DNA of 64,000 nt, from positions 402,870 to 466,869 of the forward strand of contig JAHLKT010000002.1 in NCBI GenBank assembly GCA_020444545.1. Reading direction: 5' to 3'. Below are positions 8,913 through 13,289 of the stretch, piece after piece. Position numbers and translations under genes: made by a program. The DNA comes from Desulfarculaceae bacterium (GTDB taxonomy: Bacteria; Desulfobacterota; Desulfarculia; Desulfarculales; Desulfarculaceae). The notes beneath the pieces were generated by a model. That model worked only from the letters and a program-made list of their open reading frames with translations, was not told the origin of the DNA and ran no database searches. Each line of letters opens with the position of its first letter. The stretch's first letter is position 1.

Positions 8913-9803
8913 ATGTTTTCGGCGCCCCCCACGGGCTCCATGGCGCCGCGGCGGGAAGGTACACTCGTGCTCACTTCGGCGGATTTGGACGAGCTGCTCA
9001 CCCAGGCTCGCCGCAACCAGGAAATCCAAGACCGCCTGGACCAGGTGGAGCAGTTTCTCCTGGCCCCCAGCGAGCCCGAGGCCCTGTTGGGCCGCCTGCC
9101 CGAGGTGGTGGCCTCCATCTACCGCTTGGAGCAGGTGAGCGTGGCCCTGGTGGCCGACAACCGCCGCTTGGACGTGCTCTTCGGCCCCGGCGGGGAAGGC
9201 CCGGCCGGTTGTTTCCGCCGCCGCCGCAAGGAGATGCGCCTCATTTTGGGCGACCTGGAGCGGCCTTTTTTGGAGGACCAGCCCGGCCGCGAGCTGGCCG
9301 AGTTCTTTTTCCCCGGACAAGGGCGCCCCGGCTCCCTGGCGGTGCTGCCCTTGTGGGTCAGCGGCGAGATGCTGGGCAGCCTGAACCTGGGCGCGGCCAA
9401 CAGCCGCCGCTACCAAAAGGGCCTGGACACCCACTTTTTGGAGCGCCTGGGGGCCAAGGTGGCTTTCGGGCTCAACGGGGCGCTCCTGCTGGGCCAGGCC
9501 CGGCGCATGGAGCAGCGCCAGGCGGTGGTGGAGATGGCCGGGGCGGCCTGCCACGAGCTGGCCCAACCCCTGGCCACCCTGGAGCTGGGCCTGGAAAAGC
9601 TTCGCCGCGCCCTGGGCGAGGAGCCGGAGCGGGCCGAGGAGATCGCCGGGCTCATGGCTCAGGTGGAGCGGCTGGGGGAAATGATAAAGAAGATTAGTGA
9701 AGTCAATGACTACGTAACCCGGCCCTATGCCCAGGGCCTGCGAATTGTCGATTTGACGGCCGCCGGAGGAGAACCGGGCGCGCCGGAGCCGGAAGGGGGT
9801 TGA
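8913..9803 (+). CDS. DUF484/GAF-like protein with a histidine-kinase DHp helix but no ATPase domain
   Basis: The product has 296 residues from the ATG at 8913. A GTG at 8967 with GGGAAGG upstream is an alternative start, giving 278 residues. The N-terminal 20-60 is coiled-coil-like (Leu/Gln/Glu-rich), residues about 60-195 look like a DUF484/GAF sensor, and residues about 205-275 match a HisKA dimerisation helix pair with the H-box ACHELAQPLATL (His214). The frame then ends with no N, G1 or G2 box of a HATPase domain. It may be a phosphotransfer or decoy partner of another kinase; that is inference. A HIT-family gene follows after two bases. Confidence 0.7.
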   Translation: MFSAPPTGSMAPRREGTLVLTSADLDELLTQARRNQEIQDRLDQVEQFLLAPSEPEALLGRLPEVVASIYRLEQVSVALVADNRRLDVLFGPGGEGPAGCFRRRRKEMRLILGDLERPFLEDQPGRELAEFFFPGQGRPGSLAVLPLWVSGEMLGSLNLGAANSRRYQKGLDTHFLERLGAKVAFGLNGALLLGQARRMEQRQAVVEMAGAACHELAQPLATLELGLEKLRRALGEEPERAEEIAGLMAQVERLGEMIKKISEVNDYVTRPYAQGLRIVDLTAAGGEPGAPEPEGG

Positions 9804-9805
9804 GG

Positions 9806-10228
9806 ATGAGCGAGGAAAGTTGCATCTTCTGCGACATCGTGGCGGGCAAAATACCATGCTACAAAGTCTATGAAGACGAGCGCACCTTGGCCTTCATGGA
9901 TGTGAATCCCGTGACTCCGGGTCACGTGCTGGTCATACCCAAATCGCACTACGAGAACCTGATCGAGATGGTTCCCGGCGATCTGGCCGCGACGCACCAG
10001 ACCGCCCAGAAGGTGACCGCGGCCATCATGAATGCCCTAAAGCCCGGCGGCGTGGCGGTGTTGCAGCTCAACGGCAAGGGAGCCAACCAGGTGGTGATGC
10101 ACTATCACGTGCACCTGATCCCCCGAAACCGGCCCAAGGACAAGCTCAAGATTCTGGAATGGGCCCCCAAGAAGGGCAACACCCGCTCCATCAAGAGCAA
10201 GCAGGCCAAGATTACCGAGGCCTTGTAA
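9806..10228 (+). CDS. HIT family nucleotide hydrolase (Hint-like)
   Basis: The protein has 140 residues. The histidine triad HYHVHLIPR (His 99/101/103) and an N-terminal CIFC zinc-type pair (Cys 6/9) are typical of the bacterial Hint branch, which hydrolyses adenosine phosphoramidates and aminoacyl-AMP. The ATG at 9806 is chosen over the TTG at 9800; it follows the previous stop by two bases and TTGAGG lies just upstream. It is probably co-transcribed with the preceding DHp-domain protein. Confidence 0.93.
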   Translation: MSEESCIFCDIVAGKIPCYKVYEDERTLAFMDVNPVTPGHVLVIPKSHYENLIEMVPGDLAATHQTAQKVTAAIMNALKPGGVAVLQLNGKGANQVVMHYHVHLIPRNRPKDKLKILEWAPKKGNTRSIKSKQAKITEAL

Positions 10229-10542: not shown

Positions 10543-10649
10543 GCCGCTAAAAGCAGGGCTTTGCGCCTGTGCGCGGTCTCGCGCCTCTGCCGTCAATCAC
10601 TATCAGGGCTGCGGGCCAAGAAGGCCCGGCGCATGCAAAAGGGGAAACC

Positions 10650-11036
10650 ATGGCAAAAGCAACCGACGCCCAGTTTTGGCAGGACTACTTCGAGGCCTAC
10701 AACTCCAAGCAATATGAAGAGCTCATGAACGAGTTCTACGCCGAGGACGCGGTTTTCCAGAACCCCAAGCAGAAGTTTGTGGGCCGCGACGCCATTCTCA
10801 AGCACTTCCAGGACGCCCACGAGTCGGTGGACGAAAAGCTGGAGGAGACCACCCGCATCATCACTCCCGAGGTGACCGCCATTGAGCTCAACGGTTACTT
10901 CGTGGCCCAGCAAGACATGCCCGACTACTACGTGCGCCCCCTCAAAAAGGGCGAGAAGCAGGAGATGGGCATGGGCGTGTTCTACCACCTCAAGGACGGC
11001 AAGATAGTCCGGGTGATGGTCTACTGGATGCAGTAG
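10650..11036 (+). CDS. SnoaL-like/NTF2-fold protein of unknown function
   Basis: The protein has 128 residues. The order of an N-terminal amphipathic helix (FWQDYFEAYNSKQYEELMNEFY), DAVFQNP, GRDAILKHF and a C-terminal strand KIVRVMVYWMQ is the cone-shaped NTF2-like/SnoaL fold, used by small isomerases, hydrolases and ligand binders. No specific catalytic pair is obvious. The ATG at 10650 has AAGGGGAAACC just upstream; a longer in-frame start at 10569 adds a low-complexity Ala/Pro/Arg tail and is rejected. It is a single-gene unit with its own promoter. Confidence 0.8.
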   Translation: MAKATDAQFWQDYFEAYNSKQYEELMNEFYAEDAVFQNPKQKFVGRDAILKHFQDAHESVDEKLEETTRIITPEVTAIELNGYFVAQQDMPDYYVRPLKKGEKQEMGMGVFYHLKDGKIVRVMVYWMQ

Positions 11037-11159: not shown

Positions 11160-13289
11160 ATGACTCTGGCGGGGTGGATAGGCATCGGCGCGGCCGGCGG
11201 CATCGCCACCGGGGTGTTGGCCGGGGAGTCCTGCCGAGTGTTGCAGCCCATCGGCAACGCCTACGTCATGCTCCTGGAGTCGGTGGTCTATCCCTACCTG
11301 ATTTCCTCCCTGCTGCACGGCCTGGGCCGCCTGAGCCCGGCCATGGCCCTCCGCCTGCTCAAGAAAAGCTGGCCCTTCTATCTGGCCGCCTGGTTCGGCG
11401 TTCTGGGGGCCATCTTGCTCCTGGGCCAGGCCTTCCCGTCCTCGCCCCCGGCCTTCATGGTGGACAACGCGGCCCAGGTTCGGGGCGGCCCCGACTTCTT
11501 GCAGCTCATCCTGCCGGGCAACATCTTCCAGGACCTGGCCAACAACTACGTGCCCGCCGTGGTCTTATTATCGGTGTTCTTCGGGGTGGCCATCCAGTCC
11601 ATCAAGGGCAAGGAGCGGGCCCTGGAGATTCTGGCCCTGGTGCGCGCCGCTTGCGTGAAGATCTGGGGCTGGGTGGTCAAGCTGGCCCCGGTGGCGGTGT
11701 TCGCCATGTTCGCCTCCACCGTGGGCACCACCGAGTTGGCCCAGGCCGGCGGCCTGCTGGTCTACGTGGGCCTTTTCCTGGCGGCCTGCGGCCTGCTGGC
11801 CTTTTGGGCCCTGCCCATGGCCATCGCCTCCCTGATGCCCCTGCGCTACCGCGAGGTGATCCTCCTCCTGCGCAACGCCCTTACCCTGGCCCTGGTCACC
11901 ACCCTGTCGGTGGTGGCCTTGCCCTACATTCAGGAAGCCGCCGAAAAGCTGGCCCAGGCCAACAAGATCGACGACCCGGAGCGGGGGGAGATCATCGAGA
12001 CCTCCCTGGCCGTTAACTACCCCCTGGGCCAGTTGGGCAACTTCTTTGTCTACTTCTTCATGCTCTTCGCGGCCTTTTACTCCCGCACCGCCCTGAGCGG
12101 CGTGGAAGAGCTCGCCCTGCCGTTCATGACCCTGTTCTCCTGCTTCGGTTCACCCACCAGCACGGTGAACGCGGTGGACTTCCTGGGCTCCTGGCTGCGC
12201 CTGCCGGGCAGCCCCACGGACCTGTACGTGGAGACCATGATGGTCACCCGCTACGGCCAGGTGGCCCTGTCGGTGATGGGCTTCGCCTTCCTGACCTTCC
12301 TGATGACCTTCAACTTCTACGGCAAGATCAAGCCGCGGCTGGGCCGCCTCCTGGGCGCGCTGGGCATCACGGCGGGGGCGCTGGTGCTCCTGGCCTGGGG
12401 CGGCCACGTAATGTTCAAGGACATCCTGACCCAGCCCCAGGAAAACTACCTGGCCTTCCGCTTGCCCACCTCCGTCACCCAGGGCATCAAGGCCAGGTTC
12501 TATGAGAGCCAGGCCCAGTTCCTGCGCGAGCACCCCAAGGCGGCCCTGCAACCCGGCCAGAGCGTCCTGCACCGCATCCAGAGCACCCAGACCCTCAGGG
12601 TGGGCTACGGCCGCGACATCGTGCCTTTTGCCTATCGCAACGACCAAGGCGAGTTGGTGGGCTACGACGTGGCCTGCGCCTACAACCTGGCCCGGGCCTT
12701 GAACGTGAAGCTGGCCTTCGTGCCCGTGGTCTACGAAAACCTGGAGCAGGACGTCAAGGCCGGCATCATGGACATCTGGATGGGCGGGGTCTATGTCATG
12801 GAGAACCGCATGCTCTGGGGGGCCTTCTCCAGCCCCATCTTCCATAGCCCCATGGCCCTGATCGTGCCCTCCGGTCGGGTGAAGGAATTCGCGGACATGG
12901 CCCGCATCAAAAAGCACAAGCACCTGACCCTGGCCCTGTTCGACAACCCGGCCATGCGCACCCTGGGCCAGCGCCTGTTCCCCTGGGCCAAGCAGATTCT
13001 GGTGCCCGGCTACGACCAGCTGCCCAAGACCAAGGACTGGGACGCGGCCCTGTGGACCCTGGAGCAGGGCGGGGTGTGGGCCTCCAGCCATCCGGGCTAC
13101 AGCGCGGTGCGGCCCAAGGATCTGGGCGCGGTGATCGTCTTCGCCTACCTCATGCCCAAGGACTCGTCCCAGATGCGCGAACTGGTCAACCATTGGCTGC
13201 AAATGCGTCGGGCCGACGGCTTCCTGGCCCAGCAGCGCGCCTATTGGATCGAAGGCGCAGTGGCCGGAGGGGGCGGGGCCGGGCGCTAG
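11160..13289 (+). CDS. Dicarboxylate/cation symporter (DAACS) fused to a periplasmic solute-binding domain
   Basis: The protein has 709 residues from the ATG at 11160. Residues about 1-440 are an integral membrane DAACS-type symporter (GltP/DctA fold) with repeated hydrophobic segments and a re-entrant-loop-like FSCFGSPTSTVNAVDF region. After a last membrane span (GALVLLAWGGHVMF) comes about 250 residues of SBP_bac_3-type amino-acid binding protein: LRVGYGRDIVPFAYRNDQGE, GYDVACAYNLARALNV and GIMDIWMGG. The binding domain would sit in the periplasm, tethered to the transporter. Substrate is unknown; acidic amino acids or dicarboxylates are likely from the family. Similar fusions may exist elsewhere, but I could not check how widespread they are. 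Confidence 0.85.
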   Translation: MTLAGWIGIGAAGGIATGVLAGESCRVLQPIGNAYVMLLESVVYPYLISSLLHGLGRLSPAMALRLLKKSWPFYLAAWFGVLGAILLLGQAFPSSPPAFMVDNAAQVRGGPDFLQLILPGNIFQDLANNYVPAVVLLSVFFGVAIQSIKGKERALEILALVRAACVKIWGWVVKLAPVAVFAMFASTVGTTELAQAGGLLVYVGLFLAACGLLAFWALPMAIASLMPLRYREVILLLRNALTLALVTTLSVVALPYIQEAAEKLAQANKIDDPERGEIIETSLAVNYPLGQLGNFFVYFFMLFAAFYSRTALSGVEELALPFMTLFSCFGSPTSTVNAVDFLGSWLRLPGSPTDLYVETMMVTRYGQVALSVMGFAFLTFLMTFNFYGKIKPRLGRLLGALGITAGALVLLAWGGHVMFKDILTQPQENYLAFRLPTSVTQGIKARFYESQAQFLREHPKAALQPGQSVLHRIQSTQTLRVGYGRDIVPFAYRNDQGELVGYDVACAYNLARALNVKLAFVPVVYENLEQDVKAGIMDIWMGGVYVMENRMLWGAFSSPIFHSPMALIVPSGRVKEFADMARIKKHKHLTLALFDNPAMRTLGQRLFPWAKQILVPGYDQLPKTKDWDAALWTLEQGGVWASSHPGYSAVRPKDLGAVIVFAYLMPKDSSQMRELVNHWLQMRRADGFLAQQRAYWIEGAVAGGGGAGR

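Follow-up and report, generated by a model that had tools for sequence, protein, structure and literature searches.

An SLC1-fold membrane protein fused to a solute-binding domain in Desulfarculaceae, a candidate binding-protein-dependent secondary uptake system

The window analyzed here is a stretch of 64,000 nucleotides from a Desulfarculaceae bacterium (GCA_020444545.1, contig JAHLKT010000002.1). On its forward strand, the gene at 11160–13289 forms a single unbroken reading frame, running from an ATG at 11160 to a TAG at 13289 and encoding 709 amino acids (Table 1). Pfam assigns residues 5–331 to the SDF family (E 2e-34; 119.7 bits, cut-off 27.9) and residues 479–697 to SBP_bac_3 (E 6e-20; 71.7 bits, cut-off 26.4), with no other Pfam domain in the chain at E up to 0.1; an ABC component or a fused sensor was considered and rejected, no such domain being present. 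From the N terminus, an SDF/DAACS (GltPh-like) membrane part leads into a ninth transmembrane helix, after which a linker connects to a complete SBP_bac_3 domain. A sequence-only reading had described a symporter and a solute-binding protein (SBP) in one chain with a complete binding domain, and this is borne out by the two Pfam matches within one frame, by relatives with the same full-length layout, and by a two-lobed Foldseek fold; the domain search of the C-terminal part confirmed SBP_bac_3. That reading also placed the binding domain after the last membrane span, which is correct for its C-terminal position but not for a direct junction, as a hydrophobic helix (residues 394–424) intervenes in all 31 aligned members of the family.

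The fusion is the sole SDF gene found in this genome. Upstream lie GAF/HisKA-like and HIT-domain genes that accompany the fusion at the genus level, and a SnoaL-like gene (10644–11036) sits between the HIT gene and the fusion in the window only, among the loci compared. In another group, four loci (L043, L045, L046, and L047) have a RimK-like ATP-grasp ligase gene adjoining the fusion. In the compared loci no partner gene is conserved across the whole fusion family, no ABC permease or ATPase was matched by Pfam in the fusion chain or the scanned neighbors, and promoter and terminator scans gave no usable signal.

Table 1. Coordinates of the fusion gene, its parts, and its conserved upstream neighbors (positions in the 64,000-nucleotide window)
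Feature	Position	Strand	Basis
GAF/HisKA-like (DUF484) gene	8913–9803	+	Pfam; family upstream of fusion in L050–L053; genus-level context only
HIT-domain gene	9800–10228	+	Pfam; conserved beside fusion in L050–L053; genus-level context only
Whole fusion gene	11160–13289	+	709 codons plus stop; open frame; layout shared by 31 aligned members
SDF (GltPh/SLC1-fold) membrane domain, residues 1–388	11160–12323	+	Pfam SDF; VIA-align to 9bgy
HP1 hairpin region, residues 230–267	11847–11960	+	Model helices 230–247 and 251–267; GltPh mapping
TM7 region, residues 275–307	11982–12080	+	Model; NMDGT motif replaced
HP2 hairpin region, residues 314–345	12099–12194	+	Model; non-canonical by GltPh mapping
TM8, residues 352–386	12213–12317	+	Model; D394, R397, N401, D405 equivalents lost
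Extra transmembrane helix (TM9), residues 394–424	12339–12431	+	Model; hydrophobic in 31/31 members
Linker, residues 425–466	12432–12557	+	Low pLDDT at 426–438
Solute-binding domain (SBP_bac_3), residues 467–698	12558–13253	+	Pfam; phmmer; Foldseek

AlphaFold modeling of the window protein (pLDDT 79.5, pTM 0.66) and of the distant member L013 (pLDDT 81.2, pTM 0.69) gave the SLC1 helices in both cases, re-entrant hairpins HP1 and HP2 among them, and beyond these one long helix, a linker, and a two-lobed SBP. VIA-align placed residues 1–387 of the window protein on 9bgy, an ancestral uncoupled aspartate transporter (Z 37.0, rmsd 2.9 over 359 residues), followed by EAAT, ASCT2, GltPh, and GltTk entries. 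As modeled, the fusion protein keeps the SLC1 fold, HP1 and HP2 included; HP1 of the window protein lacks the canonical serine-rich tip, and at a pTM of 0.66 the predicted placement of the SDF half relative to the SBP half is uncertain. The C-terminus of SLC1 carriers is cytoplasmic, and the extra helix is therefore what would bring the SBP outside. In 27 of the 31 members the loop preceding this helix has more Lys and Arg than the residues that follow it, a charge pattern that fits an SBP on the outer face.

Mapping of the 31 members to GltPh numbering revealed that the sites of a canonical carrier are largely gone. No member retains N310 or N401, position 312 is never acidic, and position 405 is never D, E, or N; D394 and R397 occur in two members apiece. 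The Na+ and H+ signature residues listed for the SDF/DAACS family in PMC12668577 are, for those positions that were mapped, absent from all 31. The family has conserved stretches of its own, present in most members and as variants in the window's genus: 'AFATG..VVLP' in HP1, 'SYSFPSVGT' in TM7, and 'FGS..VAIPF' in HP2. By eye, TM8 carries a basic residue (Arg in 30 members, Lys in one) located two or three positions ahead of 397, which is the sole hint of a substrate contact still kept. By sequence and fold the window protein is an SDF member, and its aligned site residues place it outside the cation-coupled DAACS carriers. The designation "DAACS-type secondary carrier" accordingly stands for fold and ancestry but not for the cation- and substrate-coordinating residues, which are gone throughout the fusion family.

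Whether searched by sequence or by Foldseek, the binding domain has its best PDB matches in cyclohexadienyl dehydratases and the reconstructed ancestors of these enzymes. A phmmer search matched 5jos (E 1.7e-18), and Foldseek returned cyclohexadienyl dehydratases and amino-acid SBPs, including 6bqe (target TM 0.86 over 236 columns) and 5t0w (0.88). In pockets of this kind we take Arg to hold the ligand carboxylate and Asp to hold the amino group. The Arg is present in 27 of the 31 members and the Asp in none; the Asp is likewise absent from 9e2b, solved with tryptophan. The kept Arg hints at a carboxylate ligand, with no particular compound indicated; acidic amino acids or dicarboxylates would be a guess.

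The same arrangement occurs in other genomes, as the sequence-only reading had suggested looking for, and extends from 82–83% down to 23% identity to the window protein. With duplicate copies set aside, the family numbered 33 distinct full or near-full members; 31 of them entered the family alignment (23–83% identical to the window protein), the end-cut L108 and L110 being left out. The closest named relative is a fusion of the same full-length layout in a Desulfarculaceae MAG (82–83% identical); two further species of the window's genus have fusions at 71–72%, and more distant members lie at 23–34%. Among 395 genomes of the window's phylum, Desulfobacterota (Thermodesulfobacteriota), 11 contain intact full-length fusions (13 genes), and two further genomes (G262 and G214) contain frame-broken ones. 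Intact fusions occur in 5 of 63 genomes of the window's class, with broken copies in two; full-length fusions occur in 5 of 145 genomes of the class of G360, with fragments alone in two more; and full or end-cut fusions occur in 16 of 46 genomes of the order of G270, with a broken copy in one. These genome samples overlap, so the counts are not additive. Beyond the phylum, where reach was assessed from plasmid records alone, 2 of 72,556 records contain a fusion, those of the gammaproteobacteria Pseudoalteromonas xiamenensis and Halioglobus pacificus; the Pseudoalteromonas fusion, on NZ_CP099918.1, is annotated only as 'cation:dicarboxylase symporter family transporter'. Viral contigs gave 54 pattern matches, none confirmed as a fusion relative.

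Across six pairs, dN/dS was 0.03–0.36 for the SDF part and 0.05–0.33 for the SBP part, and the linker was the least constrained part in the five pairs with estimable dS. The fusion arrangement is old and conserved, with purifying selection on both halves. A C-terminal tail, approximately RWS[IV]..DVLGW, ends most fusion proteins; the window's genus lacks it, and Pseudoalteromonas has an altered form. Apparent extra domains in some long frames (L076; L199, L200, and L204; 744–840 aa) were set aside, as by eye they look like N-terminal read-through of GC-rich sequence.

The locus L036, a non-canonical SDF beside an SBP gene, served as query for a search of the phylum that yielded two further arrangements. 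Three reverse-order fusions (L123, L124, and L129) begin with a signal-like N terminus and SBP_bac_3 and reach SDF through a single transmembrane helix, so that, as in the C-terminal fusions, one added helix separates the domains. Six adjacent SBP–SDF gene pairs were also found: in L116, L117, L118, and L145 the SBP_bac_3 gene lies directly upstream of the SDF gene with overlapping open frames, and L168 and L170 represent a third kind of SBP–SDF pair, in which the SDF is canonical. The earlier suggestion that the binding protein serves the SDF carrier is backed by these three separate forms of linkage.

A census of SDF proteins located 124 places in 97 of the 395 genomes, corresponding to 117 genes. 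Fragments in G116, G239, G217, and G097 were left out and the neighborhood was read for 113 loci; dropping L207, L232, L051, L146, and L033 for gaps in key columns left 108 scorable SDFs. Linkage was defined as an SBP_bac_3 within the flanks, mostly 1.5–2.5 kb and some shortened by contig ends, and applied to 23 of the 108, leaving 85 unlinked. Among the linked SDFs, 17 keep at most one of five canonical residues, three keep two or three, and three keep four or five; among the 85 without a flanking SBP_bac_3, none keeps fewer than three, seven keep three, and 78 keep four or five. The association of near-complete loss with linkage (17/23 versus 0/85) gives a Fisher p of 4e-15, a guide value, the rows being related. 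The acidic residue at 312 is lost in 21 of the 23 linked SDFs versus 16 of the 85 unlinked ones. Near-complete site loss is thus confined to SBP-linked SDFs, and linkage itself also occurs with canonical ones: L168 and L170 keep all five scored residues and L117 keeps four, so SBP linkage and site loss are separate things. A canonical-like group (L225–L230) has HLCGS replacing NMDGT in TM7 and no SBP in the flanks read. In three loci (L017, L020, and L026) a canonical SDF adjoins a gene resembling, by eye, aspartate/glutamate racemase.

An SDF tree, built from 71 census rows after thinning, groups the C-terminal fusions together (support 100), the N-terminal fusions with four pairs as a second set (100), and L168/L170 as a third (98) that lies among canonical SDFs. 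An SBP tree of 61 rows recovered the same three sets (99, 96, and 100), so carrier and SBP have travelled together within each. A single group of all SBP-linked SDFs was rejected (p-AU 0.018). Joining the C-terminal fusions with the pair/N-fusion set had a support of 61, with long branches meeting, and is not rejected by the topology test. Judged from these trees, the SBP–SDF link arose at least twice, possibly three times.

On balance, we propose that the fusion is probably a single-chain, binding-protein-dependent secondary uptake system built on the SLC1 elevator fold. The extra helix would place the binding domain in the periplasm, where the SBP would capture a small solute, probably one bearing a carboxylate, close around it, and hand it to the outward-facing transport core, which would move it across the membrane by an elevator-type movement. 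The SBP would supply affinity and perhaps direction. With the SBP delivering solute, the core may manage without the high-affinity and cation sites that free-standing DAACS carriers possess; it would no longer use their Na+/H+ and amino-acid sites, implying a different substrate chemistry and energy coupling. This proposal is backed by the conservation of the fusion, selection on both halves, retention of HP1, HP2, and a complete SBP, the presence of TM9 in 31/31 members, the two fusion orders and overlapping pairs, the limitation of site loss to SBP-linked SDFs, the agreement of the SDF and SBP trees, and the TAXI–GltS precedent (PMC12344293). Transport itself we infer, since the canonical substrate and cation sites are absent.

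Other roles for the two halves were weighed against delivery. The SBP could gate or regulate a self-sufficient carrier, its ligand opening or shutting an SDF core that has a different substrate site of its own. The conserved stretches in HP1, TM7, and HP2 and the basic residue of TM8 look as if a ligand site had persisted; however, SBP–SDF linkage in three lineages and in opposite orders is what delivery predicts, the sequences carry no sign of gating, and we consider this role unlikely. Somewhat less likely again is a receptor or transceptor, in which a non-transporting SDF part anchors the binding domain or relays its state to a partner protein. The loss of canonical transport residues would suit such a protein, as would the GAF/HisKA-like gene just upstream in the window's genus, but that neighbor did not turn up next to fusions outside this genus, selection on the SDF part is as strong as on the SBP, and the hairpins HP1 and HP2 are kept in the model. 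The sensor role raised by the sequence-only reading finds no support within the chain, in which Pfam detects no output domain (kinase, GGDEF, or methyl-accepting) at E up to 0.1.

Another conceivable outcome of ligand binding is the opening of an anion path, since ionotropic glutamate receptors have a ligand-binding domain akin to SBP_bac_3 and anion conduction is possible in SLC1 proteins. Weak, below-cut-off Lig_chan-Glu_bd matches in the SBPs of the N-terminal fusions and pairs are explained by shared SBP ancestry, there is no evidence of a pore, and a ligand-gated channel seems very improbable. We attach still less weight to a tethered enzyme resembling cyclohexadienyl dehydratase (PheC, PaCDT), a possibility raised by the closest solved relatives of the domain: the general acid of that enzyme, Glu173 (PMC7683729), is Glu in one member and replaced in 30 of 31, and Thr169 is replaced in 29 of 31. 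Frame-broken copies (L051, L049, L054, and L111/L114, in G262, G396, G214, and G589), which are pseudogenes or assembly errors, could be taken to suggest that the fusion is an artefact in which a lost stop codon or faulty assembly merged two genes. The probability of this is negligible: for the family it is ruled out by the 33 distinct full or near-full members and by dN/dS well below 1 in both halves, and both trees hold the C-terminal fusions together. As the same full-length arrangement is found in other species, the fusion is neither chance nor sequencing error.

Read as a delivery system, the fusion can be set beside several known transporters. With the DAACS/SDF carriers (GltPh, GltTk, GltP, DctA; human EAAT and ASCT) it shares sequence family and the fold of residues 1–388, and it differs from them in having TM9 and an SBP and in lacking the cation and substrate residues. 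In GlnPQ-type ABC importers the substrate-binding domain is fused to the translocator, and the likeness is that of a binding domain tethered to its own translocator. With TRAP (DctPQM) and TTT (TctABC) the fusion would share SBP-dependent secondary transport, if the delivery reading holds. According to PMC12344293 (2025), which proposed TAXI–GltS from fusions, gene coupling, and binding data, the use of soluble SBPs by secondary carriers had been known for TRAP and TTT alone. TAXI–GltS (Bordetella pertussis BP0403/BP0402; Lachnospiraceae fusions) resembles the present system in tying an SBP to a sodium/glutamate-type carrier through coupled genes or fusion, and an elevator mechanism is proposed for both; it differs in pairing a GltS carrier with an N-terminal TAXI SBP, whereas the window fusion pairs SDF, its canonical carrier residues lost, with a C-terminal SBP_bac_3. 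None of the component families of these systems (DctM/DctQ, TctA/TctB, GltS; DctP, TctC, TAXI SBP) was found in the chain at E up to 0.1. The kinship lies in an SBP genetically tied to a secondary-carrier fold, in both fusion orders and in overlapping pairs, and on the best reading the fusion stands by kind beside TRAP, TTT, and TAXI–GltS. The main text of PMC12344293 does not contain the words DAACS or GltPh, and a full-text literature search, most subscription journals being outside its reach, found no description of an SDF–SBP system. The fusion and the differently linked SBP and SDF parts in related bacteria suggest an undescribed class of nutrient uptake machine. In a stronger form, which we put forward as a tentative possibility, this would be a new SBP-dependent transporter class on the SLC1 elevator fold with two or three origins, in which the SBP took over recognition, perhaps also direction, in two of the three sets, the Na+/H+ and substrate sites eroded, and selection kept acting on the elevator body.

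Few elevators have been studied as closely as GltPh. The association of its fold with SBPs in three sets and in two opposite fusion orders makes testable, on a much-solved fold, the proposal in PMC12344293 that some feature of the elevator mechanism permits SBP use, a proposal for which that paper calls for further classes as a test. The fusion family also supplies glutamate-transporter cores from nature in which the coupling residues are missing; if the stronger form of the reading holds, these bacteria would possess an SLC1-fold machine able to do without the coupling residues on which its working is held to depend.
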